Shown here: piece by piece, positions 10,195-24,851 of the stretch
Numbering within the stretch: the stretch's first letter is position 1
How the letters are laid out: each line of letters starts with the position of its first letter
Virus record (IMG/VR): IMGVR_UViG_3300033153_009647
Span: 1 to 31,214 of that record
DNA length: 31,214 nucleotides
Direction: 5' to 3' (one strand)
DNA from: a virus
The notes under the pieces: generated by a model
What the model saw: only the letters and a program-made list of their open reading frames with translations
The model's database searches: none
Told to the model about the DNA's origin: nothing
Translations under genes and position numbers: made by a program

Positions 10195-10773
10195 TTATTT
10201 TTCCTTATTTTTATTCCATACAAAAGCTTTTGATTTTGTGTCATGCGCAATCGCCCAGCATACAGCAATGGGAGTACTATAAGGACTATACTTTTTTAAA
10301 TATTTATGGGTAGCAAAAATAGTATTTCCTGTTGTTATAACATTATCAATTAGGACTAGATTGGGACTTAAATCTGGGGTATCTTTTGCATATACAATAG
10401 GCATCTTACCAACTTTACCTTGACTCCGCAATTCATGTGATGGGGATGTTTTAATCGATGTTAGTATATCCGCCATTTGTCCATTAGGAATATGTCGTAA
10501 CATGTTTTCAATAATTTTTCTATTAGAAGATGTATCACCTTTAGAATTCGGGACAGGAATAAGCACAGGATTTTTTATAAGACTATTAACTAACTTTGCC
10601 ATTTGCGGCGCAACTATTTCTAGTCCTTCCCCCTTTTTAATTCCATATGCTAAATCTCTAATCATCTTTCCCTCTTTTGTATTCCTCTCCCCTTTTGCTG
10701 GGTAATTATAAACGCCATACAAATATTTTTTGTGTCTAGCCTTTTCATTTAATATTTGTTTAAAACTTTTCAT
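10195..10773 (-). CDS. CTS-tagged phosphoribosyltransferase-like protein (ComF-like)
   Basis: A 192-residue protein. Residues 1-10, MKSFKQILNE, match the CTS pattern with L-N-E as possible cleavage site. The PRPP-binding signature LVLIDNVITTGNT is at 139-151; the family consensus has two acidic residues before V-x-T-T-G, here D143 and N144, so the second is replaced. LIPVPNSKGD (71-80) matches the ComF-type substrate/hood region. A PRPP-using transferase or salvage role is likely from the family; substrate unknown. The start overlaps the upstream TOPRIM gene by ATGA, so the two are probably coupled. Carriage in the virion is inferred from the tag. Confidence 0.8.
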   Translation of the reverse strand: MKSFKQILNEKARHKKYLYGVYNYPAKGERNTKEGKMIRDLAYGIKKGEGLEIVAPQMAKLVNSLIKNPVLIPVPNSKGDTSSNRKIIENMLRHIPNGQMADILTSIKTSPSHELRSQGKVGKMPIVYAKDTPDLSPNLVLIDNVITTGNTIFATHKYLKKYSPYSTPIAVCWAIAHDTKSKAFVWNKNKEK

Positions 10774-11378
10774 ATTAAATTATTATCCTTTAAAAAATTC
10801 TTGACTTCTTCTTGTGACATATCTCCAAGATCCCCATATGGTTTTGGAACTGTTAATGAAATATCTCCTAGTTTTTTTAATTTATTACCAGCCGGATCAT
10901 CATCAGCAATTACAACAATTTTCTGTGGTAATAAAGTTAACCACTCTTTTAATTGTTTTGGGTTATTAGTCAAAACAGCAATCCCCGAAAGTCCCAAATT
11001 ATGAATTTTTACTATATCAAAAATGCCTTCAGTAACAAATAAATATTTTGATTTTTCTTTATATGATTCCAAACCATAAACAGATAATTGAGACTTATTA
11101 TTAATCTTTGATGTATAAGAAAAATATTTCCATAACTTCATTTTTTCTTCAGATGATAATTTATTCCTAAGTTTGGACATAGATCCAAGAACTTTACTAC
11201 CAGCTGGATTATAAGATTGATATCCTAATATTTTTCCAGATAGATTATATAGAAGAAACGTAGCAATACCATTTTCTTTATCCATTATAACTTTAGTATG
11301 TTTTAAATCTATACCTCTGATCTTCAAATGATCTTCTATATCTATAACCTCGATTAATATTTCTTTAAACCCTTTCAT
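10770..11378 (-). CDS. CTS-tagged TOPRIM-domain protein
   Basis: A 202-residue protein. MKGFKEILIE (1-10) is CTS-like with L-I-E. The C-terminal half is a TOPRIM fold: FVTEGIFDIVKIHNLG (catalytic Glu about 117), then IVVIADDDPAGNKL (Asp 159-161), as in DnaG-like primases and toprim nucleases. The first half resembles the region before the TOPRIM in phage primase-like proteins, but no zinc finger or helicase domain is present. It might bind or process nucleic acid early after injection; that is inference. No Shine-Dalgarno is visible before the ATG; a TATAAATA box lies only 8 nt away. Confidence 0.8.
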   Translation of the reverse strand: MKGFKEILIEVIDIEDHLKIRGIDLKHTKVIMDKENGIATFLLYNLSGKILGYQSYNPAGSKVLGSMSKLRNKLSSEEKMKLWKYFSYTSKINNKSQLSVYGLESYKEKSKYLFVTEGIFDIVKIHNLGLSGIAVLTNNPKQLKEWLTLLPQKIVVIADDDPAGNKLKKLGDISLTVPKPYGDLGDMSQEEVKNFLKDNNLI

Positions 11379-12158: not shown

Positions 12159-12171
12159 TTATATGATTGGG

Positions 12172-12268
12172 AAGTATAGTATGGGGAATCGTTCTGGAAT
12201 TTTTGGGGAATTTTCCATAGGATTTTTGTTAGGAATTTTTTGGGGAATTTCCTGGGAATTTTGGGGTG
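12172..12268 (-). repeat. Helically phased A-tract / AATTCC repeats
   Basis: On the minus strand the block contains seven or eight degenerate copies of A(3-6)-TTCC(CC). The TTCC steps begin about 11, 12, 12-13, 12, 11, 11 and 15 bp apart. Each copy puts an A-tract on the same face of the helix, a pattern known to give intrinsic curvature. It lies in the gap between the end of the Cys-rich gene train and the small membrane gene. A 66-residue frame crosses it but has no recognisable features. Confidence 0.7.
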
Positions 12269-12363
12269 ATAAATTCTATACACCTTGGGCTATCCCATAA
12301 AAAACCCTGTATAAGTTTTTCGGATCTTACGTCATTTTACTATATGGAATTACTATACGATAA
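12269..12363. other. Intergenic gap after the Cys-rich gene train
   Basis: AT-rich spacer between the last Cys-rich gene and the phased repeats. I see no strong hairpin-plus-T-run terminator; only a weak GGG-ATAG-CCC stem near 12287-12297. No gene supported. Confidence 0.4.
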
Positions 12364-12546
12364 TTATTTTAAAATCTCCTTTATTTTTAATTCTTTTTGT
12401 TTTCTTTTATAATGATCACATGATTGATGTCTATTGTCCAGATTGTCGGTAAAAGCAAATACGACAAAACAATATCCTTTTTTTAACATACAATAATGAT
12501 CTTTTAATATATTATCGACATTAGGTTCATTATAAGGACATTTCAT
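12364..12546 (-). CDS. Cys-rich small protein, class B (last of train)
   Basis: 60 residues: MKCPYNEPN, then HYCMLKKGYC and HQSCDHYKRKQ. The pattern C-P-Y ... Y-C ... C-x-H-Y-K-(K/R) is shared with the genes starting at 13427, 15303 and 16747 (class B). It ends in KIKEILK although no gene follows: the DNA keeps AAGGAGATTTTAAAAT but reads AATAA where ATGA is expected, which looks like a lost junction. Four Cys could bind a metal. Function unknown. Confidence 0.75.
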   Translation of the reverse strand: MKCPYNEPNVDNILKDHYCMLKKGYCFVVFAFTDNLDNRHQSCDHYKRKQKELKIKEILK

Positions 12547-12749
12547 TTGAGTATTTCCTTTATTATTTTATGTTTCTCTTCTCTATTACATTTGACTATG
12601 ATATTATAATTTTTCATTTTATCCATACTATCTGTCTTATGTGATATAAAATACCTACATTGTGCACATGATGTTGAACCGACATATACGTCTTTACTAT
12701 ACTTACAATATGTTGCACATGCCATGTTTCTTATTACTCTACCTATCAT
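12543..12749 (-). CDS. Cys-rich small protein, class A
   Basis: 68 residues. Core: C11-x3-C15, then YVGSTSCAQCRYFIS and a late Cys (IIVKCNREEKH). Class A is defined by (V/I)-G-x-x-x-C-x-x-C-x-(Y/H)-(F/Y)-I followed after 10-20 residues by one more Cys-(K/N), suggesting a four-Cys metal site. The usual C-P-Y opening is replaced here by CATYCKYSK. Start and stop overlap both neighbours by ATGA. Function unknown. Confidence 0.8.
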   Translation of the reverse strand: MIGRVIRNMACATYCKYSKDVYVGSTSCAQCRYFISHKTDSMDKMKNYNIIVKCNREEKHKIIKEILK

Positions 12750-12958
12750 TTGAGTATTTCCTTTATCTTCTCTTGGTTTTCTTTTTTACATCTTAATATA
12801 TGTTCCTTAGGGTGAACTGATATAAAGTACTTACATACAATACAAAATGGACCATTGACTTGTACTATATTATCATCATGTCTCAAAACACCATCTGGAT
12901 GAATTTCCATAATAGTCATACAATATGGACATTTGTTTTTAAAACTTTGTGTTTTCAT
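12746..12958 (-). CDS. Cys-rich small protein, class A
   Basis: 70 residues. Opens with KCPYCMTIMEIHPDG, followed by VNGPFCIVCKYFIS and HILRCKKENQEK, then the KIKEILK tail. CPYC provides an extra Cys compared with other class A members. It has its own clear ribosome binding site (AAGAGGAAAACTCAAATG), because the gene before it ends 50 nt upstream; an 11-codon ATG frame (MILLILTIVLI) lies in that gap. Confidence 0.8.
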   Translation of the reverse strand: MKTQSFKNKCPYCMTIMEIHPDGVLRHDDNIVQVNGPFCIVCKYFISVHPKEHILRCKKENQEKIKEILK

Positions 12959-13008
12959 TTGAGTTTTCCTCTTTACCTAGATTAACACTATTGTTAATAT
13001 AAGTAAAA

Positions 13009-13197
13009 TCATTTGAGTATTTCCATTATTTTTTTTAGTTTTTCTTCTATCTTACAATATAAATTATCTTTATCTTTTCCTATATAGTGTTGACAATGAG
13101 TAGTACAAGTTATCCCTGCAACCCATGCTCTATCCATAGGCCTATACAGTTGCATTATATTATAAGGACATCTTGATATATGTTTTATATATTTCAT
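13009..13197 (-). CDS. Cys-rich small protein, class A
   Basis: 62 residues. RCPYNIMQLYRPM, then WVAGITCTTHCQHYIG (C-x3-C spacing instead of C-x2-C) and NLYCKIEEK, ending KIMEILK. The start overlaps the stop of the previous gene by ATGA. Its own stop overlaps an ATG that opens only an 11-codon frame, so the next unit in this junction seems to have been lost. Confidence 0.78.
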   Translation of the reverse strand: MKYIKHISRCPYNIMQLYRPMDRAWVAGITCTTHCQHYIGKDKDNLYCKIEEKLKKIMEILK

Positions 13198-13427
13198 TTG
13201 AGGATCTCTTTTATCTTGTCTTGTCTATTTTTCTTATAATGTACACAATCTTTAAAACTATTTCCTATTTTATTGGAGTCTCTATTTGCATATCCATGAT
13301 GTAGTTCACCTTTACACCATCGTCCATCACCTATTCTATTATTGATCTTTCCTTTAATGGTACAATAATAATTGTTCTTACCATATGTTTTATTATGTGG
13401 TTTACTATATGAACATCTTTTATTCAT
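13194..13427 (-). CDS. Cys-rich small protein, class B
   Basis: 77 residues. KRCSYSKPHNK, NNYYCTIKGK, GRWCKGELHHG and SFKDCVHYKKNR, then DKIKEILK. Very like the gene starting at 15303 in layout (C-x-Y-S-K ... Y-Y-C-x-I ... C-x-x-Y), so the two are probably paralogues. Both ends overlap neighbours by ATGA. Confidence 0.78.
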   Translation of the reverse strand: MNKRCSYSKPHNKTYGKNNYYCTIKGKINNRIGDGRWCKGELHHGYANRDSNKIGNSFKDCVHYKKNRQDKIKEILK

Positions 13428-13603
13428 TTTAATATCTCTTTTATCTTTTCTTGTTTCATAAGTTTCATATATGTATCATAACAGTTAAATTCTATGTATT
13501 TTTCTTTATAATACAATATACATCTATCACAATTTCCTATACAAACAATTATTTTTCTATTATGATTTACTTTAATTTCTTTAATTTCTTTTAATTGTTT
13601 CAT
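13424..13603 (-). CDS. Cys-rich small protein (59 aa), class C-like
   Basis: A 59-residue frame with ATG at 13603, MKQLKEIKEIKVNHNRK, then IVCIGNCDRCILYYK and FNCYDTYMKL, ending KIKEILK and overlapping the next ATG by ATGA. The C-x3-C-x2-C core resembles the GDCTGC/GDCNEC core of class C. No Shine-Dalgarno is clear before its ATG (preceded by AGAGCGATTAAA), and a 42-nt gap separates it from the previous gene, so this junction is broken or rearranged. Confidence 0.7.
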   Translation of the reverse strand: MKQLKEIKEIKVNHNRKIIVCIGNCDRCILYYKEKYIEFNCYDTYMKLMKQEKIKEILK

Positions 13604-13645
13604 TTTAATCGCTCTACCCTTACTCTATACTAACCTATATTGGCC

Positions 13646-13843
13646 TCATAATACCTTTAATATTTGTTTTACCTTATATCTTCTATATTTCTTTAATACA
13701 TGTTCATTTATTATTGTTCTGGAATTTCCTTTACAATCTTTAAATAACGAACATTCTATACAATCAGCATTACAATAATAACCATTATATTCCTTATTAT
13801 TAATATTCTCTTGTATTATATGGAAGAATTGTTTCTTATTCAT
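13646..13843 (-). CDS. Cys-rich small protein, class C
   Basis: 65 residues. MNKKQFFHIIQENINN, then NGYYCNADCIECSLFKDC, then a basic helix. Clearly paralogous to the genes starting at 14458 and 19112 (MNKKEFF / MNRKQFL start, YYC-x3-C-x2-C ... C core, INEHVLKKYRRYK helix). The tail is KVKQILKVL: two residues longer than normal, and not followed by a gene, so the coupling signal has degenerated. Confidence 0.78.
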   Translation of the reverse strand: MNKKQFFHIIQENINNKEYNGYYCNADCIECSLFKDCKGNSRTIINEHVLKKYRRYKVKQILKVL

Positions 13844-14058
13844 TTTAGAATTTCCTTTATCTTATCATGTTTTTCTTTCTTACAATGTAATACATACCAA
13901 TTTTTCTTGATATGTTCATATGATATATAATATTGACAATTACTACATGCATTTGTGCCGATATATACGTTATTATGATTATTATAATTTTCCTTATATA
14001 TCTTACTTCTAGTTTGTCCATAGGGACATTTGTCGTGTTCTGTTGAAGTATATCTCAT
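13840..14058 (-). CDS. Cys-rich small protein, class A
   Basis: 72 residues. DKCPYGQTRSKIY, then VYIGTNACSNCQYYIS and VLHCKKEKHDK, ending KIKEILK. A full class A layout: CPYG, a variable linker, G-T-x-x-C-x-x-C, and a late Cys. Both ends overlap neighbours by ATGA. Confidence 0.8.
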   Translation of the reverse strand: MRYTSTEHDKCPYGQTRSKIYKENYNNHNNVYIGTNACSNCQYYISYEHIKKNWYVLHCKKEKHDKIKEILK

Positions 14059-14261
14059 TTGAGTATTTCCTTTATCTTGTTTTTTCTGTCTTCTAATTTA
14101 CATCTTACATTTGTATTATATCGATCTATTGATATAAAATGATCGCAACATGTTTGACAAGTATTTCCACCTATATAAGATATTAAGACTTGATTAATAT
14201 CCTGTTTAATACCATACGGACATAGTGTTGTATATTTATTATCTATTATAGTTGTTTTCAT
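14055..14261 (-). CDS. Cys-rich small protein, class A
   Basis: 68 residues. TTLCPYGIKQDIN, then YIGGNTCQTCCDHFIS and NVRCKLEDRKN, ending KIKEILK. One extra Cys follows the C-x2-C pair. Its junction to the next gene uses the TTTAGAATTTCC (plus strand) variant upstream and TTTGAGTATTTCC downstream, showing that the junction DNA differs between units while the peptide tail is kept. Confidence 0.8.
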   Translation of the reverse strand: MKTTIIDNKYTTLCPYGIKQDINQVLISYIGGNTCQTCCDHFISIDRYNTNVRCKLEDRKNKIKEILK

Positions 14262-14458
14262 TTTAGAATTTCCTTAATCTTTTTATTCTTTTCTTTTTTA
14301 ATATAGTATATAATAAAATCATTAATCATGTTTTGTTTTCTACTATGACAATCCTCACAGACAGGACATTTATTACAAACAATACCTCTACAATAATACT
14401 CATATCCATCACCATTCATATTATTCTTTACTGCCTTTAAGAATTGTTTCCTATTCAT
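14258..14458 (-). CDS. Cys-rich small protein, class C
   Basis: 66 residues. MNRKQFLKAVKNNMNG, then YEYYCRGIVCNKCPVCEDC and a basic helical tail ending KIKEILK. Class C is defined by an N-terminal amphipathic helix, then C-x-G-x-x-C-x-x-C-P and a further Cys. Close to the genes starting at 13843 and 19112. Confidence 0.8.
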   Translation of the reverse strand: MNRKQFLKAVKNNMNGDGYEYYCRGIVCNKCPVCEDCHSRKQNMINDFIIYYIKKEKNKKIKEILK

Positions 14459-14643
14459 TTGAGTATCACTTTTAATTTCTTTATTTTTTCTTCTTTATAT
14501 ATACGACATTTTTTATATAGATGATTATTATGTTTATATGTCCAACATGATGATCGGTTTTTAAAATTTACTACCTTATCACAACGCATTAAACCATCGG
14601 CTGTGAACATATAAGGACAGGGGGAATCGAAATATTTATTCAT
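14455..14643 (-). CDS. Cys-rich small protein, class B-like
   Basis: 62 residues. DSPCPYMFTADGLMRC, then NRSSCWTYKHNN and YKKCRIYKEEK, ending KLKVILK. It has the C-P-Y opening and the terminal K-x-C-x-x-Y-K of class B. It overlaps neighbours by ATGA at both ends. Confidence 0.77.
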   Translation of the reverse strand: MNKYFDSPCPYMFTADGLMRCDKVVNFKNRSSCWTYKHNNHLYKKCRIYKEEKIKKLKVILK

Positions 14644-14864
14644 TTCAATATCGCTTTAATCTTGCATATTTTTTCATATGCTTCATCTAAATCATTTTCT
14701 GTTAACTCCATACACATTGTTTCGAGTGGGCATTCGGCACAGGTTTCAAAATTGATTGTTGATAATCTTCCTTCATTATATTCCTTTTGATCTTTACATG
14801 ACCATTCATTATGAAGACTTTTGTTATGAACCCAGTCTATTCCTCTATAATACATTTTTTTCAT
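14640..14864 (-). CDS. Cys-rich small protein, class D
   Basis: 74 residues. MYYRGIDWVHNK, then NEWSCKDQKEY, a linker, and FETCAECPLETMCMEL, followed by an acidic helix and KIKAILK. The aromatic start with W-x-C and the later C-x2-C-P ... C also appear in the gene starting at 17939 (WYCPRK ... SCIDCPW), so I group these as class D. Confidence 0.77.
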   Translation of the reverse strand: MKKMYYRGIDWVHNKSLHNEWSCKDQKEYNEGRLSTINFETCAECPLETMCMELTENDLDEAYEKICKIKAILK

Positions 14865-15088
14865 TTTAATATCTCTTTTATTTTCTTTTGTTTTTCTTCT
14901 AGTTTACATGCAACCATAGTGCCATATGTTTCATATTCAATAGATATATTATATAGACACCGTTTACAAAACATTGATGCTACATTAATTATCATATTAG
15001 GATTATCAAATATATTATATATAGACGATTTGTCTAAAGTTATTTTATATGGACATTGTCTACCTTTTCGAGTAGTAGTTGTTATCAT
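14861..15088 (-). CDS. Cys-rich small protein, class A
   Basis: 75 residues. GRQCPYKITLDKS, then INVASMFCKRCLYNIS and MVACKLEEKQK, ending KIKEILK. The usual Gly before the C-x2-C pair is Ala-Ser here. Both ends overlap neighbours by ATGA. Confidence 0.8.
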   Translation of the reverse strand: MITTTTRKGRQCPYKITLDKSSIYNIFDNPNMIINVASMFCKRCLYNISIEYETYGTMVACKLEEKQKKIKEILK

Positions 15089-15303
15089 TTTAATATCTCT
15101 CTTATTTTCTTTTGTCTTATAGCATCTTGATAATACTTACATATTCTCTTATCCTTATATGATGGCCAATTCGATTTTCCTAAACAAGATCCTCCCCCAC
15201 CACAACTATATGGATCTTCAATATATTTATTATTATATGTTTTAATTATATGACAATAATATTTCCCATTTTTTAGTTTACTATACGGACATTGGACATT
15301 CAT
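15085..15303 (-). CDS. Cys-rich small protein, class B
   Basis: 72 residues from the ATG at 15303 (MNVQCPYSKLKNGKYYC). A GTG at 15312 is open, but the ATG has GAAGGTGG at the right distance. Then YSCGGGGSCLGKSN and KRICKYYQDA, ending KIREILK. Closely similar in layout to the gene starting at 13427. The 64-nt gap before it contains an 18-codon ATG frame (MKPIKKLKTNSMKKRFMS). Confidence 0.78.
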   Translation of the reverse strand: MNVQCPYSKLKNGKYYCHIIKTYNNKYIEDPYSCGGGGSCLGKSNWPSYKDKRICKYYQDAIRQKKIREILK

Positions 15304-15367
15304 GACAACCACCTTCAGGACATAAAACGCTTTTTCATACTATTTGTTTTTAATTTTTTTATTGGTT

Positions 15368-15664
15368 TCATTTCATAATCTCTATTATCTTTAATTCTTT
15401 TTCTGTAGGATATCCTATATGATCTAAATCAAATTCTTCTAGTAATACTTTTTTATTTTTTATTGTAATGAACCATATTGTATATGATAATATACAGGGA
15501 ATCAAAAAAATAGTAATAAAAAAGAATTTTATTTTATTCTTAATACCGTTAGTACTGCCGAATTCATCATTATAAAGTTCTAGGTAGTTTTTCTTGAGTT
15601 TCTTGCTACAATAAGCTTTTAATAAACATTTTAATAATAATGGTTTTTTAATCGTTCTAGTCAT
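15368..15664 (-). CDS. Small single-pass membrane protein in the train
   Basis: 98 residues. A basic N-terminus (TRTIKKPLLLKCLLKAYC), then one clear transmembrane segment FFFITIFLIPCILSYTIWFI (about 49-68) and an acidic C-terminal part ending KIIEIMK. It is not Cys-rich, yet carries the shared C-terminal tail. This argues that the tail belongs to the gene-junction DNA and not to one protein family. Confidence 0.78.
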   Translation of the reverse strand: MTRTIKKPLLLKCLLKAYCSKKLKKNYLELYNDEFGSTNGIKNKIKFFFITIFLIPCILSYTIWFITIKNKKVLLEEFDLDHIGYPTEKELKIIEIMK

Positions 15665-15888
15665 TTTAATATCTCTTCAATTAACATTCTTTTTTTGTCT
15701 ATACAATCAAAAAGGAAAGACCATGTATTATCAAGGTGTTCGTCATATATATCTATACAGTCTACGTTTAATTTTTTTATTTGACCTTTCTTCCCTAGGT
15801 ATTGATCCATTAATATGTTCCAATTAAAATGCATTATTTCATGTGCATTTTTTTTAATATATACCCAATCTCCTACTTTATATTTCAT
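15661..15888 (-). CDS. SH3/KOW-like small protein
   Basis: 75 residues. MKYKVGDWVYIKKNAHEI, then QYLGKKGQIKKLNVDC and IDIYDEHLDNTWSFLFDC, ending LIEEILK. The K-V-G-D-W-V opening followed by G-K-x-G-x-I is typical of small SH3-like or KOW-like beta barrels. Not Cys-rich (two Cys). It carries the shared tail and ATGA overlaps, like its unrelated neighbours. Confidence 0.75.
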   Translation of the reverse strand: MKYKVGDWVYIKKNAHEIMHFNWNILMDQYLGKKGQIKKLNVDCIDIYDEHLDNTWSFLFDCIDKKRMLIEEILK

Positions 15889-16094
15889 CTCATTATCTCT
15901 TTTATTTTATCTTGCTTTTCCAGTTTACAGGCTACTATATGTTTTTTAGTATTTTTTGAAATAAAGTGTTTACAACTTATACAAAATCCTCCACCAACAT
16001 TAACTATTTGCGAACTTTTAAAATTATCGTTTATATCTCTTATTCTGAATCCATATGGGCAATCATCATCGGCCCCATGCATATAATATTTCAT
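15885..16094 (-). CDS. Cys-rich small protein, class A
   Basis: 69 residues. DDDCPYGFRIRD, then VNVGGGFCISCKHFIS and HIVACKLEKQDK, ending KIKEIMR. A typical class A member: CPYG, V-G-G-x-x-C-x2-C-x-H-F-I-S, late Cys-Lys-Leu-Glu. Both ends overlap neighbours by ATGA. Confidence 0.82.
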   Translation of the reverse strand: MKYYMHGADDDCPYGFRIRDINDNFKSSQIVNVGGGFCISCKHFISKNTKKHIVACKLEKQDKIKEIMR

Positions 16095-16315
16095 TTTAAT
16101 ATCGCCTCTATTTTTTGTTCCCTTTCCAACTGATATAATACAGGATAGGTGGCCACGCTGGGGCCATCATGACAGCTACATAATTTGGGATTGAAATTAC
16201 ACATATGACATTCTGCAGAACATTTCCAATATCCATTATTACCTCTATACAATTTAATTTTCCCATATTTTAAGGTAATGGGTTTATTTATTATATGTTT
16301 ATATACATATTTCAT
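16091..16315 (-). CDS. Cys-rich small protein, class C/D
   Basis: 74 residues. IKLYRGNNGYWKCSAECHMC is followed by NFNPKLCSCHDG and a helix ending KIEAILK. It shares KLYRG with the preceding gene (MKLYRGRVICNNICKKC), suggesting those two are a tandem duplicate. Six Cys are visible. It begins just after the previous stop (TAAAATG) without a clear Shine-Dalgarno. Confidence 0.77.
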   Translation of the reverse strand: MKYVYKHIINKPITLKYGKIKLYRGNNGYWKCSAECHMCNFNPKLCSCHDGPSVATYPVLYQLEREQKIEAILK

Positions 16316-16316
16316 T

Positions 16317-16532
16317 TTAATTATTTTTTATATGGACTAATATATCTCCACAAGAAGAATGATCAAAATTATGAACAATCTTATTTTTGGATATAAACCT
16401 ATTAATATCAGACGATCTGAATTTTGATTTCTTAGTCTTTTTTAATATATGAGATACAATGGGACATTTCTTACATATATTATTACATATGACTCGGCCC
16501 CTATATAATTTCATTTTTTCTATTTTATTCAT
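16317..16532 (-). CDS. Cys-rich small protein, class C, without the shared tail
   Basis: 71 residues. MKLYRGRVICNNICKKCPIV, then a basic region and FDHSSCGDILVHIKNN. It is one of only three genes in the train lacking the KIKEILK-type tail, and fittingly the next ATG lacks a clear Shine-Dalgarno. An internal ATG at codon 7 would give the KLYRG start seen in its neighbour. Confidence 0.72.
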   Translation of the reverse strand: MNKIEKMKLYRGRVICNNICKKCPIVSHILKKTKKSKFRSSDINRFISKNKIVHNFDHSSCGDILVHIKNN

Positions 16533-16747
16533 TTTAATATTTCCTTTATCTTGTTTAATTTTTCTTTTTTAAAATAATAACAATCTTTATATGATTTGCT
16601 ATTAATAAGATACTTTTTATTGTGGTATGCTGGTGTAAGAAAATCTGAACAGGTACCATCCTTTTTTGGTTTATAAATCCATTTGCAATTATTATGACAG
16701 CCGCTCAATTTGTCATACCATTTACATTTTTTACTATTACATTTCAT
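16529..16747 (-). CDS. Cys-rich small protein, class B
   Basis: 72 residues. MKCNSKKCKWYDKLSGCHNN, then CKWIYKPKKDGTCSDF and SYKDCYYFKKEKL, ending KIKEILK. The terminal S-(Y/F)-K-D-C-x-(H/Y)-(Y/F)-K-K is class B. Six Cys, four of them in the first 21 residues. Confidence 0.78.
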   Translation of the reverse strand: MKCNSKKCKWYDKLSGCHNNCKWIYKPKKDGTCSDFLTPAYHNKKYLINSKSYKDCYYFKKEKLNKIKEILK

Positions 16748-17154
16748 TTTAATTCTGAAATCCCATTTGGATATACTATAATAACTTTAATATTATTTTT
16801 TATTCCATATCGTATTGTCGACCATGTTCCCGACCTTAATATTTCATTTGTACTATTTGGGGTAGCTAATAATATATCAGATGAATTTACAATATCTTTA
16901 TTTCTTTTCAAATATGGTTTTTCTTCTAAAATAGTTTTTGATTTACAGAACGCCCTATGTTTATCAAATATGGGCGGATGAATTATTATATTGTCTATTC
17001 CATTATTAGAACAAATATTATGAAAATCCTCATCGGATCCTATACAATCTCCGTGATGGAATTCTGATATATAATTATTTTCTATAAAATCTGTTATTGT
17101 CTTTTTTTGTTCAGGGGTCATTCCGTCTTTAGTTCCTGTAAATCCTATTTTCAT
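16744..17154 (-). CDS. SLOG-fold nucleotide-binding protein
   Basis: 136 residues, not Cys-rich. The Rossmann-like start KIGFTGTKDGMTPEQKK leads to EFHHGDCIGSDEDFH (about 31-45), IIIHPP (57-61), then YLKRNKDIVNSSDILLATP and RSGTWSTIRYGIKN. These are signatures of the SLOG superfamily (DprA/LOG-like), whose members bind nucleotides or nucleotide-derived signals and are linked to conflict systems. No shared tail, but it has ATGA overlap with the next gene. Specific ligand unknown. Confidence 0.85.
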   Translation of the reverse strand: MKIGFTGTKDGMTPEQKKTITDFIENNYISEFHHGDCIGSDEDFHNICSNNGIDNIIIHPPIFDKHRAFCKSKTILEEKPYLKRNKDIVNSSDILLATPNSTNEILRSGTWSTIRYGIKNNIKVIIVYPNGISELK

Positions 17155-17336
17155 TTTAGTATCTCCTTAATTTTTTCTTTCTTTGCAAATTTTTTATATA
17201 CTGGACATTCTAGTTTATTATCTACTCCATCAAAAGATAAAACACATAATGTTCCAGAATAAGTATTGATTCTATGTAATTTACAAACCTTAAATGGGCG
17301 TAAAGGATTAGTTTTACAATATTCACATTGACTCAT
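17151..17336 (-). CDS. Cys-rich small protein
   Basis: 61 residues. MSQCEYCKTNPLRPFKVC, then SGTLCVLSFDG and KLECPVYKKFAKK, ending KIKEILK. C-x2-C, C-K-x-H and a late C-P-V-Y-K-K relate it loosely to class B. Both ends overlap neighbours by ATGA. Confidence 0.77.
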   Translation of the reverse strand: MSQCEYCKTNPLRPFKVCKLHRINTYSGTLCVLSFDGVDNKLECPVYKKFAKKEKIKEILK

Positions 17337-17527
17337 TTCAGTATTGCCTTAATTTTATTATATCTTTTCAAATATTTATTGGCCCATTTCCGAGCTATTC
17401 TGAGCATACAATTATATGGTTTATGATCCACCCTAATTTGTGATGGCATCGGGCAATAGTCACATGACGATACACCGCATTTTCCATTGTTAATTATTCT
17501 ATTAGCTAATCCATATTTACTAATCAT
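17333..17527 (-). CDS. Cys-rich small protein, class C
   Basis: 64 residues from ATG 17527 (MISKYGLANRII). The frame is open to 17578, but the ATG at 17527 overlaps the previous stop as ATGA and is preceded by the junction ribosome binding site, as elsewhere in the train. NGKCGVSSCDYCPMPSQI is the class C core, then a basic helix ending KIKAILK. Confidence 0.78.
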   Translation of the reverse strand: MISKYGLANRIINNGKCGVSSCDYCPMPSQIRVDHKPYNCMLRIARKWANKYLKRYNKIKAILK

Positions 17528-17733
17528 CTTAATATCTCTTTTATTAAATTCTTTTTCTCCAACATATGATGAATACATTTATTATACGGGCAGATAATTA
17601 TACAATTGCCGTCCCCTATAACAGACTTTTGTTTTATTTTACATTTATGGAAAAGTACTGTTGATCTTATACAATACGGACAATTCTCATTAAGAGTTTT
17701 GTCAAATAATAAAGGTATGTTAAACCTATTCAT
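17524..17733 (-). CDS. Cys-rich small protein
   Basis: 69 residues. NENCPYCIRSTVLFHKCKI, then IGDGNCIIICPYNKCIHHM, ending LIKEILR. It has two CPY motifs and seven Cys, more than most. It may combine features of classes A and B. Both ends overlap neighbours by ATGA. Confidence 0.77.
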   Translation of the reverse strand: MNRFNIPLLFDKTLNENCPYCIRSTVLFHKCKIKQKSVIGDGNCIIICPYNKCIHHMLEKKNLIKEILR

Positions 17734-17939
17734 CTTAGTATTTCCTTCAATACTCGTCTTTTATGATATTCTTTATCTAAAATATCAGACCTTAATTCAC
17801 AATGTCCGAGCATATATCCTGTCCACGGACAATCGATACAAGATACTGCAGAATCCACACCAATTTTTCTGGGACAATACCATATATGCCCCGAGGAATC
17901 AGTATTAAATATATGTCCCTTCCATTCAAATTTTTTCAT
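17730..17939 (-). CDS. Cys-rich small protein, class D
   Basis: 69 residues. FEWKGHIFNTDSSGHIWYC, then AVSCIDCPWTGYMLGHC and a charged helix ending VLKEILR. It overlaps the receiver-like gene upstream by 14 nt, and its ribosome binding site (TTAGGATTAATTT) lies inside that gene. Confidence 0.77.
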   Translation of the reverse strand: MKKFEWKGHIFNTDSSGHIWYCPRKIGVDSAVSCIDCPWTGYMLGHCELRSDILDKEYHKRRVLKEILR

Positions 17940-18210
17940 ATAAATTAATCCTAACTCTTTCCATATTTTTCCTTCCTACTGGATTAGCAGTTACAAATTC
18001 TATCCTACCAGGAAGATGGTTTTGGTTTTGTTCCAACCAACACATTATACCATATCCTGTTTTTCTGGGATCTTCATCACATAAATCATGATCTAATAAT
18101 AATAAATCCCAGTATTCATTTTTAAGACATTCAATTCCTTGCTCAAATGTACGGGCGATTTTATCAGCATGGATATTTTCTCTAAAATCATCTATCAATA
18201 ATATTTTCAT
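17926..18210 (-). CDS. Receiver-like protein of the cREC family
   Basis: 94 residues, not Cys-rich. MKILLIDDFREN gives the paired Asp at 7-8. LLLLDHDLCDED (36-47) holds the D-H-D signature, followed by TGYGIMCWLEQN and the terminal IEFVTANPVGRKNMERV. This layout is that of the cyclic-phosphate-processing receiver-like domain (cREC), not of a classical response regulator, which lacks D-H-D and S/T-A-N-P-V-G. The biochemical role is not established here. It lacks the KIKEILK tail. Confidence 0.8.
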   Translation of the reverse strand: MKILLIDDFRENIHADKIARTFEQGIECLKNEYWDLLLLDHDLCDEDPRKTGYGIMCWLEQNQNHLPGRIEFVTANPVGRKNMERVRINLYEKI

Positions 18211-18416
18211 TTCATTATTTCCTTAATTTTATTTCTTTTCTTTTCTAGTATTTCCTGATTACATATAACAGTAGACATAGAATCTCTAATCAAAAATTCT
18301 TTACATTGTTCACAAAATGCACTACCAATTTTTGGTAAAACATCATCAAATGATGATTTTTTATAATAAGGGCACGCACCGCTTAGAACTCCTCTATAGT
18401 TGGTTGTAACTATCAT
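18207..18416 (-). CDS. Cys-rich small protein, class A
   Basis: 69 residues. LSGACPYYKKSSF, then KIGSAFCEQCKEFLI and TVICNQEILEKK, ending KIKEIMK. Standard class A layout. Both ends overlap neighbours by ATGA. Confidence 0.8.
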   Translation of the reverse strand: MIVTTNYRGVLSGACPYYKKSSFDDVLPKIGSAFCEQCKEFLIRDSMSTVICNQEILEKKRNKIKEIMK

Positions 18417-18706
18417 TTTAATATTTCCTTAATTTTTTCTTCTTTTTCTTTTTTTACTAAATACAAATACAATACTGCACAAGCTGATTCCCCGTTTATA
18501 TTTTTAATTTCATGTTTTATTCTTTTTTCAAGCTTACTTATTTCTTTTCCTGCCAAGCCTGACCCATCCGTTAATTCTTCAATATCAATATTTCTTATTT
18601 TTGAAATATATTGTATTAATGGACAATCAGGGCTACAACATGCCATTGTAGTCCTATTACAGGGACTCAGTCTACGTCCTTTAATTTGCATATCACTTAG
18701 TTTCAT
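18413..18706 (-). CDS. Cys-rich small protein, class C-like, extended
   Basis: 97 residues, the longest Cys-rich member. RRLSPCNRTTMACCSPDC is followed by PLIQYISKIR, then a long charged helical insertion and SACAVLYLYLVKKEK, ending KIKEILK. The C-x2-x-C-P-L-I core is class C-like. The insertion may be coiled coil. Confidence 0.77.
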   Translation of the reverse strand: MKLSDMQIKGRRLSPCNRTTMACCSPDCPLIQYISKIRNIDIEELTDGSGLAGKEISKLEKRIKHEIKNINGESACAVLYLYLVKKEKEEKIKEILK

Positions 18707-18915
18707 TTTAATATTTCTTTAATCTTATATTGTTTTAAAAGTTCTTTGGCTGTTTTATTGGCCAAGTCATAAGTGCATCCACAAGCATGATCAGAACTAT
18801 GAACTATTAAGTCAATAGGGCATTCATTACAATCCCCTATATGATCAGGGCACTTTCCACCATTTTTAATCATAATCTTTAGCTTTCTAATATCTCTTTT
18901 ATCAATAGATTTCAT
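18703..18915 (-). CDS. Cys-rich small protein, class C
   Basis: 70 residues. IKNGGKCPDHIGDCNECPID is followed by HSSDHACGCTYDLANK and KIKEILK. The G-x-C-P-x-x-x-G-D-C-x-x-C core is shared with the gene starting at 19306 (RRCPGYGDCTGC). Both ends overlap neighbours by ATGA. Confidence 0.8.
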   Translation of the reverse strand: MKSIDKRDIRKLKIMIKNGGKCPDHIGDCNECPIDLIVHSSDHACGCTYDLANKTAKELLKQYKIKEILK

Positions 18916-19112
18916 TTTAATATCTCTAGGATTTTATATCTTTTATATTCTTTTAATATATGTATATTAATCTTTTCATCCACTAATGAATTAATGGGAC
19001 AATTCTTTTCTATTGGACATATACTACAATCTGACCCATGACAATAATACCTTTTTTTGTCCATATTATTCATATTATATTGTGCTCCATAAAAAAATTC
19101 TTTCTTATTCAT
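18912..19112 (-). CDS. Cys-rich small protein, class C
   Basis: 66 residues. MNKKEFFYGAQYNMNN, then KRYYCHGSDCSICPIEKNC and a basic helix (IHILKEYKRYK) ending ILEILK. Paralogue of the genes starting at 13843 and 14458, which lie about 5 kb away, so the class members are shuffled, not a simple tandem run. Confidence 0.8.
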   Translation of the reverse strand: MNKKEFFYGAQYNMNNMDKKRYYCHGSDCSICPIEKNCPINSLVDEKINIHILKEYKRYKILEILK

Positions 19113-19306
19113 TTGAGTATCTCTTGGATTTTATTTTGTTTTAATATCTTTCTAAATTTATTAATTGAGCATATATGCAACGGAGTAATATTATTTTTAT
19201 GATATCTCATGATGCATCCCGTACAATCGCCATATCCAGGGCATCTTCTATCAGTCAGAATTTTATTAATAAGATCGATTTGTTCTTTGGATAGTGTTTT
19301 GCCCAA
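19109..19306 (-). CDS. Cys-rich small protein, class C (first after promoter)
   Basis: 65 residues. SKEQIDLINKILTD is followed by RRCPGYGDCTGCIMRYH and LHICSINKFRK, ending KIQEILK. It is the first gene downstream of the sigma70-like promoter; GAAGGAATC lies before its ATG. Probably translated efficiently as head of the early transcript. Confidence 0.8.
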   Translation of the reverse strand: MGKTLSKEQIDLINKILTDRRCPGYGDCTGCIMRYHKNNITPLHICSINKFRKILKQNKIQEILK

Positions 19307-19334
19307 TTATAGATTCCTTCAATTTCGATAAGAT

Positions 19335-19363
19335 ATTATATCATGCAAACCGATCCAGATCAA
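19335..19363 (-). promoter_or_regulatory. Sigma70-like promoter for the Cys-rich gene train
   Basis: On the minus strand: TTGATC (19363-19358), a 17-bp spacer, then TATAAT (19340-19335). The -10 is a perfect match and the -35 matches four of six positions of TTGACA, with ideal spacing. The -10 ends 28 nt before the ATG at 19306. It lies in the only sizeable gap (19307-19398) near the head of the train. It is unlike the TATAAATA late boxes of the virion genes. Confidence 0.7.
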
Positions 19364-19398
19364 GTTTCCCATCCTATTTGGGCATAACTGAATATGGG

Positions 19399-19602
19399 CT
19401 ATTTTAGTATTTGGGCTATTTTTTCTTGTTTGATTTTTTCAAGTTCTTCTATTGAATTATTGTATATATCAGTCCATAGTATTTTGTCTATATCACAAAA
19501 ATTATCGAATGGACATTGGTAACAGTTTAGGTAGTTTATATCTATACAATGGCCACCATGTTTAATTATATCCTTTAATATATACTCATTGGAATGTTCC
19601 AT
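19399..19602 (-). CDS. Cys-rich small protein, class C, next to terminase
   Basis: 67 residues. KHGGHCIDINYLNCYQCPFD followed by NFCDIDKILWTD, ending KIAQILK. It starts immediately after the gp17 stop (TAG-ATG) and lies upstream of the sigma70-like promoter, so it is probably expressed with gp17. Its tail keeps the I-L-K peptide, but the DNA (GCCCAAATACTAAAATAGCCC) no longer has a Shine-Dalgarno or ATGA: a decayed junction with a short direct repeat AATAGCCCA. Confidence 0.75.
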   Translation of the reverse strand: MEHSNEYILKDIIKHGGHCIDINYLNCYQCPFDNFCDIDKILWTDIYNNSIEELEKIKQEKIAQILK

Positions 19603-21297
19603 CTACACAACTGTAAATCCATTATTCGCTTCATCAAAATTGGAACTCTCTTCTCCGCCATCCTGGTGGTATACAGGCAACATTTGCTCTGAAGATATTT
19701 GTTCCATTTTCTTTTTATACATCCTTGAAACAAAATCAGTATCACACCATTCTTTATAATATGGAAGAGATGAGAAATAAGAGAACAATACTAGTCCCAT
19801 TATAATGTCATCAGTAAATCCATCTGCCGCCTCATATGAATTTTTTCTTCTGGTAAAATTTGATAGTTCAACCACGGTATCATAATCATTTATCTTTAGT
19901 CCATGATTTTCTATAAGTTCTTTTGCATATCTAACACCAGCTTTTTTTGTTGATTTGGTTGTTCTAATTCCTATTTCCTTGGTATCTACATATAATTCTG
20001 GATATTCAATATCATTAAATAATGCATTACATACTACAAGACCAATAGAATTATTTTCTATTATTGTCAAGGCATTATTATACATTTGGCCAATCTTTTC
20101 TATTGTATAAGGAAACATTGTTAATTCTATCTTATTGTTTCTATATACAGCCACCTGCTCAATAAACCCAGTATTATCGACTGATAATACGTTTATAGTG
20201 GAAAAGTCCTTCCCTACACCTTCTGATGTGTCCACAGATAGTATATATTTCATATCTGGTTCTGGTTCTTTATAAATCTTAAATGTTCCTTCATACATTT
20301 CTTTTTTAGGGGGCTCGTATGTGATAGAACTCATGGCGGCTGATGATAATAACATACTACCACTTGAAATAAAACTACAGCAATATTCCTGATTAAATTT
20401 ATCAATATCACCCATATTTTGTATTTCTTGTTCTTTCCACTTTTCATCTCGGCCAGGTATTTCATCCCAACCTATTGTAAATGGATGATAGCCGTTATTT
20501 TTATTCTGGGCATCTCTCCATAATTTATAAAAATGGTTCATGCCTTTGGGGGTTGATACCAATACTATTTTGGCATTATCCGCTCTTGATATTGTAGGAT
20601 ACATGGCGGTATAGAATTCTTCAAATAATGATGTTTGTATAATAGCTGCCTCATCAATCATTAATAAACCATTAATAGTAAAACCACGGAGACCAGATTC
20701 AGATGTAGCGGAAGATATTGTTCCACTACCAGTATCAATACCAATGGATGATTTGTTGAACTCGTAAACTCCACCTTTAAGAAAATGTGGTAGTCCTCTA
20801 TATGCCATCATAAGTCTTGAGAATATTTCACGGGCAGTAACGCCTTTATTCGCTAGAATAGCAGATAGTTTATCTTTATAAAAACACATATACCAGACAA
20901 GGAATAATGCCAATGTTTGGGATTTCCCTGATTGTCTAGGAAGTAATAGTATATTATATTTTTGTGCTTGGAGTTGGCGCACTAGTTTTTCTTGCCATTG
21001 ATATAGAGTTATGATTGATCGCCCTTCATTGGGATCATTTATATAACAATAGTTATTCATAAAATAGACTGGATCTTTTTTACATTTGGCTATTTCTATT
21101 ATATGTTCTTTTGTTAATCCTATTTTAGTTTCTGCTTTTCTTAAATGAGGGTCTTTACGGAATTCTAACGGTTCGCCATGTATATCTGTTGTTATATCAT
21201 ATATACCAGTTTTTAATAAACCTTTTTTGTTTATTCCTAGATCGCCGGAGAGATTTTGTCGTATTTCTTTTTCTAATAATTGTTCTTGTTCGTCCAT
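19603..21297 (-). CDS. 17: Terminase large subunit gp17
   Basis: A 564-residue DNA-packaging motor protein. ATPase domain: Walker A PRQSGKSQ (about 120-127), Walker B LLMIDEAA (211-218), coupling motif VSTP (247-250). Nuclease domain: SVDTSEG (D356), IENNS (E414) and FTDDIIM (D496/497), lining up with T4 D401, E458 and D542. T4 gp17 is 610 residues. Fits packaging and cutting of concatemeric DNA at the portal. A late promoter (TATAAATA) is 20 nt upstream, with GAAGGAAA as ribosome binding site. In T4 gp16-17-18 are adjacent; here both neighbours are displaced by accessory blocks. Confidence 0.96.
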   Translation of the reverse strand: MDEQEQLLEKEIRQNLSGDLGINKKGLLKTGIYDITTDIHGEPLEFRKDPHLRKAETKIGLTKEHIIEIAKCKKDPVYFMNNYCYINDPNEGRSIITLYQWQEKLVRQLQAQKYNILLLPRQSGKSQTLALFLVWYMCFYKDKLSAILANKGVTAREIFSRLMMAYRGLPHFLKGGVYEFNKSSIGIDTGSGTISSATSESGLRGFTINGLLMIDEAAIIQTSLFEEFYTAMYPTISRADNAKIVLVSTPKGMNHFYKLWRDAQNKNNGYHPFTIGWDEIPGRDEKWKEQEIQNMGDIDKFNQEYCCSFISSGSMLLSSAAMSSITYEPPKKEMYEGTFKIYKEPEPDMKYILSVDTSEGVGKDFSTINVLSVDNTGFIEQVAVYRNNKIELTMFPYTIEKIGQMYNNALTIIENNSIGLVVCNALFNDIEYPELYVDTKEIGIRTTKSTKKAGVRYAKELIENHGLKINDYDTVVELSNFTRRKNSYEAADGFTDDIIMGLVLFSYFSSLPYYKEWCDTDFVSRMYKKKMEQISSEQMLPVYHQDGGEESSNFDEANNGFTVV

Positions 21298-21327: not shown

Positions 21328-21795
21328 TTATCTTACATACTTACCAGTATAGTCTACTAATTGATTTCCGCCATAATTCATATTTTCTGATTTTATTACC
21401 ATTCCATGTATACCATTATCAAGGAAAAACTTTTCTAATTTATTATTTACTTTTTTTCTTATAGTTTCTAAGTTTTTAAAATCTTGATCATCTTCTAGAT
21501 CAAATACTACAACTTTCATATTTCTTAATACACCATGAGTATCTATCTTACCATGTACTTTAGGATCGTAGTATTCTATTTTTGATGATTCAGGGTTTAA
21601 TGTATATTCTTCTGCGTCTTCTTGTTTAAGAGTATAGTATCTACCCTTACCATAATTGGCTTTACCTTTATATGTTTTATGAGCCTTCTCTGTTCTAAAA
21701 ACATTATTGATGCCTAGATTTTTGGTATAGGTGAAGGATAGTCCAAAGTCCTTTAATGAAAATTGTTCATTAAGGAATGATTTAAAGTGTTTCAT
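21328..21795 (-). CDS. CTS-tagged protein, possible ADP-ribosyltransferase
   Basis: 155 residues. MKHFKSFLNE (1-10) is CTS-like with L-N-E. VFRTEKAHK (R34), then NYGKGRYYTLKQEDAEEY (47-64) resembles the Arg strand and G-x-x-Y-F-T-x-x-x-x-x-A motif of ADP-ribosyltransferases. The end GIHGMVIKSENMNYGG followed by QLVDYTGKYV resembles their closing strands. T4 Alt is a CTS-packaged ADP-ribosyltransferase, so this could be a small functional counterpart. The fold call is from pattern only. AAGGTG precedes the ATG. Confidence 0.7.
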   Translation of the reverse strand: MKHFKSFLNEQFSLKDFGLSFTYTKNLGINNVFRTEKAHKTYKGKANYGKGRYYTLKQEDAEEYTLNPESSKIEYYDPKVHGKIDTHGVLRNMKVVVFDLEDDQDFKNLETIRKKVNNKLEKFFLDNGIHGMVIKSENMNYGGNQLVDYTGKYVR

Positions 21796-21801
21796 AACAC
21801 C

Positions 21802-21981
21802 TTAATCAGATTCTTTATCGCCTTCCCACTCTTTATCTATTTCGTCAAAAAATTCTTTTTTCTTGTCGCCTTCTAATTCGGCCGGTGATTTTACACCAAA
21901 CTTCTTTAGTTTTTCTTCAAAGAATTTTTTATAGGCTTCTTTATCGCCTGATTTTTCATTTACATATTCTGAAAATTTCAT
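21802..21981 (-). CDS. CTS-tagged small protein with KFGVKSPA module (59 aa)
   Basis: A 59-residue frame beginning MKFSEYVNEKSGDKEAYKKF. The CTS-like tag has V-N-E at the cleavage position (V instead of L/I). It continues KLKKFGVKSPAELEGDKKK and ends FFDEIDKEWEGDKESD. The same K-K-F-G-V-K-S-P-A ... F-F-x-E-I-x-x-E-W module is in the gene at 24097-24264, so the two are paralogues. It is acidic and helical. Confidence 0.8.
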   Translation of the reverse strand: MKFSEYVNEKSGDKEAYKKFFEEKLKKFGVKSPAELEGDKKKEFFDEIDKEWEGDKESD

Positions 21982-21987
21982 ATTATT

Positions 21988-22218
21988 TTATCCTTTTGGG
22001 TTTGCAAACTTCCAAGCGGCTGCATATTGATCTTGTGAGAGAGCATCTTTTTGCTTGTCGCCCGCATCATCTGCGATTTCTTTTATCCAATTATCGACTG
22101 CTTTAACACCTTCTGTGTTATCGTCTTCGACATATTGAGGTCTTATATTATCCAAAGCTTGTTTAAGTTTAGAACAACCTTTATCATACTCTTCGTTTAA
22201 ATATTCTTCAAATTTCAT
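21988..22218 (-). CDS. CTS-tagged small protein
   Basis: 76 residues. MKFEEYLNEEYDKG carries the tag with L-N-E. The rest is acidic, predicted helical (KLKQALDNIRPQYVEDDN; WIKEIADDAGDKQKDALS). No family recognised. GGAGATATAAAATG is the start context. Only 6 nt separate its stop from the next ATG. Confidence 0.8.
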   Translation of the reverse strand: MKFEEYLNEEYDKGCSKLKQALDNIRPQYVEDDNTEGVKAVDNWIKEIADDAGDKQKDALSQDQYAAAWKFANPKG

Positions 22219-22232
22219 TTTATATCTCCCTA

Positions 22233-22517
22233 TTATCCTTTATATGCTCTTACAGTTTCTAAATCTGGTTCATCCTTATCATTTACTCCCAGTGAGATGC
22301 CATCACCCTTTTTCCAAAGTTTTTTATTCCACTTACCATTAAGAGGTTTATCTATCATAACTGAATAATCATTATCATCGCTGATTTTCACTGTTCCTAT
22401 AAATAATGTTTTTCCATCTCCAGATTGTATAATAACTTTATCCCCATCCTTGAATTTCTTTTTCTTTGGAAAGTCCTCAAGTTTTTTCATCTCTTCTAAA
22501 TATTCTTCAAATTTCAT
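22233..22517 (-). CDS. CTS-tagged SH3-like small protein
   Basis: 94 residues. MKFEEYLEEMKKLED has the tag with L-E-E. After it, KKFKDGDKVIIQSGDGKTLF with IGTVKISDDND resembles a small beta-barrel (SH3/KOW-like). Function unknown; perhaps nucleic-acid binding. AAGGAGATATAAAATG-type start context. Confidence 0.8.
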   Translation of the reverse strand: MKFEEYLEEMKKLEDFPKKKKFKDGDKVIIQSGDGKTLFIGTVKISDDNDYSVMIDKPLNGKWNKKLWKKGDGISLGVNDKDEPDLETVRAYKG

Positions 22518-22528
22518 TTTATATCTCC

Positions 22529-22726
22529 TTAATCGTCTGATCTTAACATTTTATCTAGTTCGTCAGTTGTAACTTTTTTTGATTTTCCTTTATCATCTTT
22601 AAGTCCAACATCTTTGGAACTTATGGATACTATAACGTATTCCATTCCCTCAAATGTGAATTTATCACCTTTCTTTGGGTTATCTCGCCAGTCTTTCATT
22701 TCGCTTACATACTCTGAAAATTTCAT
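22529..22726 (-). CDS. CTS-tagged small protein
   Basis: 65 residues from ATG 22726 (MKFSEYVSEMKDWRDN). The frame is open up to 22795, but only this ATG gives the tag and has AGGAGAAATAAAATG before it. The body, KKGDKFTFEGMEYVIVSIS, then SKDVGLKDDKGKSKKV, suggests a small beta-rich domain. V-S-E is at the cleavage position. Confidence 0.8.
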   Translation of the reverse strand: MKFSEYVSEMKDWRDNPKKGDKFTFEGMEYVIVSISSKDVGLKDDKGKSKKVTTDELDKMLRSDD

Positions 22727-22739
22727 TTTATTTCTCCTA

Positions 22740-23048
22740 TTAAATATCCATTCTGGATTCTCTATGACTTGATTCGGCATCCTTTTTATTATCAAGGATT
22801 ACCAATACTCTTTTTCTATTTACATCCAATACATATGGATTTATAAATAAGAATATATCTTTATTTTTCTTTAATAATTCGTCTGCATCATTATCATTAA
22901 GAGGTGATACTATATGTACCCCTTCTCTGGCATTTGTTTCTTTCATAGCTTGATCAATAGTTTTTGATCTTAGTTTAGACCATTTCCCCATTGAATATTG
23001 GTATATTGTACCAGTTAATGACTCAGCGATATATTCATTAAATTTCAT
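22740..23048 (-). CDS. CTS-tagged small protein
   Basis: 102 residues. MKFNEYIAESLTGTIYQY has the tag with I-A-E, the same cleavage tripeptide as T4 internal proteins (FIAE). The body has mixed alpha/beta character (REGVHIVSPLNDNDADELL; VNRKRVLVILDNKKD). No family recognised. The start overlaps the upstream stop by ATGA. Confidence 0.8.
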   Translation of the reverse strand: MKFNEYIAESLTGTIYQYSMGKWSKLRSKTIDQAMKETNAREGVHIVSPLNDNDADELLKKNKDIFLFINPYVLDVNRKRVLVILDNKKDAESSHRESRMDI

Positions 23049-23239
23049 TTTGATTTTCCTTGCATTAAGGTATTACATTTAGGACATTTATTTTCCTTAC
23101 AAGGAACACCTTTTTTATGAGTTACTTCTTCTCCACATGTAGGACATTTACAAATATTTGATCCACCATCTTTTTGTTTTTCTCCACCAACACCCATTCC
23201 TTTGCCACGTTCTTCTTCTATATATTCTCTAAATTTCAT
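23045..23239 (-). CDS. CTS-tagged zinc-ribbon protein
   Basis: 64 residues. MKFREYIEEERGKG has the tag with I-E-E. A Gly-rich linker leads to a zinc ribbon: CKCPTCGEEVTHKKGVPC followed by KENKCPKCNTLMQGKSK (C-x2-C ... C-x2-C). Small ribbons of this type are found in bacteria and phages. Possibly nucleic-acid or protein binding. ATGA overlaps at both ends. Confidence 0.82.
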   Translation of the reverse strand: MKFREYIEEERGKGMGVGGEKQKDGGSNICKCPTCGEEVTHKKGVPCKENKCPKCNTLMQGKSK

Positions 23240-23634
23240 TCTGATCCACCCTCCGATTCCATCTTTTTAAGTCTCGAATAATAGTCTTTTAGTTCGGCCA
23301 GATGATCCAATGAAATTCTCTTTGCCATCATAGTGGCGAATGGGGATTTTTTATCCAAATGTTCGTATTCTACTTCTGTTCCCATTTCCAATTCTTTTTG
23401 ATCTACATCTTCTTCTTTGAGACCTTCTTTATTTGCCATACCACCATACATGAATGTGGATATTATTTGGTATGCCATTTTTTCTAAGTCGTCTGGTTCT
23501 ATATTATTTTCTTCGGCAAACTTATGAAAATCATCATCAGACTTATAAGGATTATCCTTAAAATAATTTGCTAATTTAATGTTTAATTCAGAATTATCTT
23601 TTTCTTCTTCTTTTATATATTCATTAAATTTCAT
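23236..23634 (-). CDS. CTS-tagged DUF5661-like protein
   Basis: 132 residues. MKFNEYIKEEEKDNSEL has the tag with I-K-E. The C-terminal part ELEMGTEVEYEHLDKKSPF then RISLDHLAELKDYYSRLKK matches the phage family (DUF5661) with the pattern G-x-E-V-E-Y-E-H-T ... A-x-D-H-L-x-E-x-x-x-Y-Y-x-x-L. The middle is helical. Family function not established. ATGA overlaps on both sides. Confidence 0.8.
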   Translation of the reverse strand: MKFNEYIKEEEKDNSELNIKLANYFKDNPYKSDDDFHKFAEENNIEPDDLEKMAYQIISTFMYGGMANKEGLKEEDVDQKELEMGTEVEYEHLDKKSPFATMMAKRISLDHLAELKDYYSRLKKMESEGGSE

Positions 23635-24551: not shown

Positions 24552-24552
24552 T

Positions 24553-24819: not shown

Positions 24820-24851
24820 ATTTTATTCCTTGTATTACTATTTATCTTATT

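Follow-up and report, generated by a model that had tools for sequence, protein, structure and literature searches.

The window analysed here is a stretch of 31,214 nucleotides from a virus (positions 1 to 31,214 of the IMG/VR record IMGVR_UViG_3300033153_009647, which is 32,997 bases long), and our subject is a train of 32 small open reading frames (ORFs) at 12364-19602 on its minus strand, 29 of which end in a variant of the peptide KIKEILK, called the tail below. The window contains T4-type late genes (terminase large subunit, tail sheath, tail tube, baseplate hub, head closure and sheath stabiliser), and the train lies directly downstream of the gene for the T4-like terminase large subunit (19603-21297), a protein that is 37-40% identical to its nearest relatives apart from one near-identical contig. 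An initial annotation, made from the letters of the window, had described 32 small genes with 29 KIKEILK-like ends, and the ORFs are indeed present on the minus strand at the coordinates it gave.

Most of the train ORFs are linked by ATGA stop/start overlaps. In a typical junction, AAGGAAATACTCAAATGA (12543-12560, minus strand), which is present exactly as it had been annotated, the codons for KEILK and the stop contain the Shine-Dalgarno (SD) sequence AAGGA next to the ATGA overlap. Each gene had been described as supplying its neighbour's signal, and this holds for most of the train but fails at five genes that have no start inside the tail, all five of which keep the peptide. These are, on the minus strand, the first gene (19399-19602; tail KIAQILK, its codons GCC CAA giving no SD, next gene 92 bases off), a gene whose product is, from its sequence, probably a membrane protein (15368-15664; ending KIIEIMK), a gene with KVKQILK plus VL (13646-13843; SD position destroyed as AAACAA, next gene 42 bases off), a gene with KIMEILK (13009-13197; next gene 50 bases off) and the last gene (12364-12546; KIKEILK and TAA, AAGGAG kept, no following gene). 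One gene listed as 17333-17578 most likely has its true start at 17527, where an ATGA overlap lies inside the tail of 17524-17733, and the corrected gene (17333-17527, minus strand) has the tail KIKAILK. A repetitive stretch rich in GGGAATTTT lies at 12160-12280, just beyond the end of the train.

The majority of the train proteins are of a Cys4 type, probably zinc-binding, and fall into several classes. Examples, all on the minus strand, are class A (CPY..C..C..FIS..C, 14055-14261, tail KIKEILK), class B (MNKKxFF..YYC..C..CP..C, 14258-14458, with the tail) and class C (GGxC..C..CP..C, 18703-18915), in which the tail is within a predicted C-terminal helix at residues 49-69. A helix is predicted at the tail in both classes that were modelled, with a predicted local distance difference test (pLDDT) score of about 50-80 there. 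The few exceptions to the Cys4 type include the membrane protein and an SH3_15-like protein ending in LIEEILK (15661-15888; Pfam E 1.9e-4, a match narrowly below the curated cut-off). Three members of the train, also on the minus strand, lack the tail: a cREC_REC (cyclic-phosphate processing receiver) protein (17926-18210), a 136-residue protein ending in ISELK whose gene has an ATGA overlap with the next one (16744-17154) and a small Cys protein (16317-16532). Pfam and PHROG named almost no train protein, a Foldseek search with the class A model gave no significant match, and tblastn of the train proteins against phages and plasmids returned nothing useful.

The tail is also found outside the window. 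The near-identical contig (L009, 99.8%) reaches past the window and contains a second tail train at 27.7-28.8 kb together with scattered single tails, one of them on a BRCT protein. In coordinates of L107, a second tail-bearing train of the same phage lies at 13470-14761, 12 kb past the end of the window, and a stand-alone BRCT-domain protein of a T4-like phage at 4368-4667 (Pfam E 9e-14) has the tail KIKAILED at its end. Pattern scans of IMG/VR with three spacings revealed one further lineage, L093 (34.4 kb), and no train besides those of this lineage and the window phage; L092, L094 and L095 proved to be chance pattern matches without a train. The head protease, the scaffold and the major head protein of this second phage are of T4 type, and its gp22 and gp23 homologues lie at L105:2673-3437 and L105:3457-4947. 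In L093 the train comes after the gene for the major head protein and a homing-endonuclease-like gene; most of its ends are KIKAILK, and one member is a DUF6011 protein with the tail. Another member, a double-length protein (L105:15082-15492), contains a complete internal tail (KIKAILTPILKK) and apparently consists of two fused cassettes. No close DNA relative was found among 50,697 phage records, nor was a cultured relative found. None of 923 genes in 79 T4-like relatives has the strict tail, a looser pattern matches 75 ORFs on the coding strand and 6 of 267 antisense ones (copies common to two contigs of one phage being counted), and a two-junction pattern, found 7 times in the window, never appears in 100 shuffles. 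A chance origin of the recurrence is excluded.

For the analysis of the tail codons we used 60 tails from three contigs, 45 with the next start inside the tail and 15 without. The tails are related by descent and were picked by pattern, so the counts are not independent and all P values are optimistic. The initial annotation had read the tail DNA as an SD plus an ATGA overlap, and where a gene starts in the overlap the codons are indeed tuned to this use. The dipeptide KE is spelled AAAGAA in 1 of 17 tails compared with 68 of 84 occurrences elsewhere in the window (Fisher 5e-9), the other tail spellings being AAGGAA, AAAGAG and AAGGAG. With the common bacterial core of the anti-SD, which may differ from that of the host, the duplex energy of the 45 overlapping ends is -2.88 kcal/mol versus -1.12 kcal/mol under synonymous resampling (z -7.5, 0/1000), while the 15 non-overlapping ends give -0.73 versus -0.38 kcal/mol (z -1.1, not significant). 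Given the peptide, the choice of tail codons to serve as the SD of the next gene is real. The junctions thus combine a stop/start overlap with anti-SD complementarity above the synonymous expectation, and they resemble translational coupling at ATGA overlaps, in which the final codons of the first gene contain the SD; in E. coli, removing such an intragenic SD usually lowers reinitiation at overlaps (PMC6728339). Ordinary ATGA overlaps differ in having no common upstream peptide, whereas here a single peptide frame holds the SD at dozens of junctions.

The initial annotation had gone further and proposed that the peptide arose incidentally, through selection for the SD at ATGA junctions, and was copied along with the cassettes, without a role as protein. 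The strong tuning of the codons speaks for this proposal, as does the observation that adjacent tails are unusually alike in DNA (p 0.001) while adjacent bodies are not (p 0.65), but it is contradicted by the tails themselves. The peptide persists in the 15 of 60 tails where no gene starts in the overlap (five in the window train, ten in the other contigs), and the SD there is visibly moved in two and absent in others: the tail KIKAILE-TAA of L104 contains AAAGCA, its GGAG lying immediately 5' of the stop, and a tail KIIEILKKDE-TAA carries AAAAAGGATGA, the peptide being kept and the SD shifted. The annotation had named in advance what would speak against it, namely the tail peptide in codons that destroy the SD, and such tails occur as KIAQILK (AAAATAGCCCAAATACTAAAATAG, at window 19399) and as KIAHILK (L105, 9009-9212). 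With the upstream residue included, the consensus is [KR]xxKIK[EA]I[LM][KR]. Lys or Arg at -2, which lies 5-6 codons upstream of the SD and thus outside it, is found in 56 of the 60 tails and in 14 of the 15 non-overlapping ones (background 14%), spelled AAA, AAG, AGA, AGG or CGA. Codon 6 encodes Leu or Met in 58 of 60 tails, compared with 50.8 +/- 1.5 when the columns are permuted, and it is spelled TTA, TTG, CTA, CTC, CTG, CTT or ATG, so that linked base changes preserve these two residues. At 17 further ATGA overlaps of these contigs, the upstream genes have varied, unrelated C-terminal peptides. Since the peptide persists where no gene starts, and the SD signal there is lost or moved, the SD fails to explain the peptide, and this older proposal is now very improbable. 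The persistence without a start, the shift of the SD, the residue at -2 and the 17 control junctions do not rest on P values alone; a comparison with the near-identical contig offered too few differences for a test of selection. Judged by these patterns of conservation, it is as protein that the tail is shown to be kept: it recurs in two lineages, its carriers have unrelated domains, and it is present whether or not a gene starts downstream.

Two other ways of dispensing with such a protein-level role, or of confining it to the ribosome, have also been weighed. If all tails had simply descended by duplication from one ancestral cassette and not yet diverged, neither the SD nor a function of the peptide would be needed, and it is true that many bodies are paralogous and that the Cys4 plan recurs. 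Bodies of different classes, however, cannot be aligned, unlike their near-identical tails. The tail codons have diverged at third positions (ATA/ATT/ATC, TTA/TTG/CTA/CTC/CTG) while the residues stay the same, and the tail is found on BRCT, DUF6011, SH3-like, membrane and Cys4 proteins, which are unrelated bodies; we consider descent by itself slightly less probable still than the SD proposal. Least probable of all is that the nascent C-terminal peptide works within the ribosome to favour termination and reinitiation at the next gene. Most tails do end directly at ATGA, but the tail is also present where nothing restarts, other ATGA junctions do without it, and added residues (KNE, KKDE, VL) displace it relative to the stop codon.

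The explanation we prefer, at a probability of roughly 0.78 that leaves aside any destination, is that the tail is a protein-level tag in the first place and that the SD is overlaid on it by codon choice. The tail would be a transferable C-terminal tag that forms a short amphipathic helix, with I2, I5 and L6 on one face and the basic residue at -2, and we infer that this helix is a docking or addressing signal by which many unrelated small phage proteins could be docked onto one common partner. The C-terminal ends beyond it vary (K, KNE, ND, NG, ED, LDD, VL), KIK[EA]IL being mostly constant, and a hydrophobic excess is also seen at -8 and -7. Where the next gene starts in the last codons, the synonymous codons used make its SD, next to an overlap of 4 bases (ATGA) or of 8 bases, as one would expect if translation were coupled. 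Short terminal peptides, often amphipathic helices, are known to direct unrelated cargo into encapsulins and bacterial microcompartments; these are like the tail in form and in their unrelated carriers, but they have a cognate shell, whereas the partner of the tail is putative. Terminal targeting peptides and coupled overlaps are each known, and the tail would combine the two. Searches of the open-access literature, the only part covered and hence weak evidence of absence, turned up no C-terminal phage tag like the KIKEILK tail.

The T4 phages offer the closest comparison for a destination. The T4 capsid-targeting sequence (CTS) carries its targeting at residues 4 and 7 (PMC9026906), an i, i+3 spacing that is also that of I2 and I5 in the tail. 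Both are short, helix-like motifs of about 10 residues with key hydrophobic residues at i and i+3, and both are found on unrelated small proteins (IPI-IPIII in T4) within the T4 virus superfamily. The CTS, however, is N-terminal and is cleaved by gp21 after phi-x-E, whereas all tails are C-terminal and do not conserve such a site, IKE being present in many window tails, A, Q, K, H or V replacing the E elsewhere, and IKA being found in most tails of the second phage (as in KIKAILK). The tail differs further in being carried by about 60 proteins in two phages and in having codons that double as an SD. Because both the N-terminal position and a conserved cleavage site are lacking, we did not class the tail as a CTS.

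The window phage has, in addition, 16-17 genes that start with MKFxEYIxE or similar (MKSFKQILNE, MKGFKEILIE), a motif that resembles the T4 CTS including its phi-x-E cleavage site, and their products, among them toprim/primase-like and phosphoribosyltransferase-like proteins, form a remarkably large group of proteins predicted to be packaged. Most of these genes lie at 21328-30558 on the minus strand, and a further location is 10195-11378. Within the region, small genes with ATGA overlaps form a second run (23045-24551), which lacks the tail and whose common peptide is N-terminal and not C-terminal. A RimK-like ATP-grasp ORF (24852-25964) contains an internal MKGFKNYLKEQEE, probably its true start, with an N-terminal tag of this type. 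None of the MKFxEYIxE genes was seen to carry the tail, save one doubtful match at the train gene 13646. In the register K-F-x-E-Y-I-x, the N-terminal motifs score against the tail profile at a median 99.5th percentile of 7,574 7-mer windows from non-train proteins, and at the 91st when the comparison is with windows that have the same hydrophobic shape.

Because the tail resembles this motif, we favour packaging into the prohead over other destinations, and we tentatively suggest, with less than even confidence, that the tail addresses its carriers to the prohead core and that they are internal proteins packaged in the virion; such a tag would mirror the N-terminal CTS-like sequence of the same phage. 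The positions of the two trains, one after the terminase and the other after the major head protein and the homing-endonuclease-like gene, were counted in favour of an address. A docking helix with another target (a membrane surface, the host polymerase, the ribosome, a protease or a self-assembling coiled coil) is a variant of the explanation preferred above, and its confidence, likewise short of even, overlaps with that explanation. Basic amphipathic helices frequently bind membranes or nucleic-acid machines, the hydrophobic excess at -8 and -7 would fit such a target, and at least one carrier is probably a membrane protein; the fixed C-terminal place, the exact I2-I5-L6 spacing and the single basic residue at -2 suggest recognition by one groove and argue against a general affinity for membranes. 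The fullest form of the prohead proposal is more doubtful: T4-like phages may have a second, C-terminal packaging code, in which a 10-residue helix would load dozens of tiny Cys4 proteins into the head for injection, its codons would be the ribosome binding site (RBS) of the next payload gene, and any body dropped between tags would be expressed and packaged. Several observations weigh against the interpretation as a whole or in part. T4's own sequence is unremarkable against the tail profile (89.6th percentile at best) and is N-terminal, not C-terminal; the tail is known in two phage lineages only, with close sample numbers; an AT-rich genome encodes K, I, E and L often; shared descent and pattern-based picking inflate significance; model confidence at the tail is only moderate; and the last gene of the train retains its AAGGAG though no gene follows.

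The initial annotation had also seen in the train a set of shuffled cassettes. Related bodies are indeed scattered and not adjacent, the best pair (18912/13646) being 23 places apart, which fits rearrangement without proving it and differs from a recent local tandem array, in which neighbouring genes would be most alike. By the adjacency test given above, the DNA of neighbouring tails is more similar than chance predicts, while a distance-based test of position against tail gives only p 0.16, and a Mantel test of each tail against its own body gives r -0.02 (p 0.65). These results fit an exchange of bodies between locally similar junctions; no rearrangement was seen between the window contig and its near-identical relative in the train stretch common to both. 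The promoter/stem-loop (PeSL) cassettes of T4-type phages are small hypervariable genes exchanged between conserved junctions. The train resembles them in both respects, but its junction is coding and conserved as a peptide, and consensus scans, the only ones made, showed no enrichment in the train, with 73 promoter-like sites versus 69 +/- 8 in shuffles and 2 terminator-like sites versus 1.9.

Where overlapping genes share a conserved peptide, its non-overlapping copies need to be checked before it is attributed to an RBS. If the preferred explanation is true, a single short sequence does two jobs, addressing the protein that ends in it and signalling translation of the next gene, and each small gene would become a plug-in module. 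The proteins of such phages that are probably co-localised, and perhaps packaged, could then be listed from sequence alone, and the tag at the C-terminus would become testable as a cargo tag beside the known N-terminal one.

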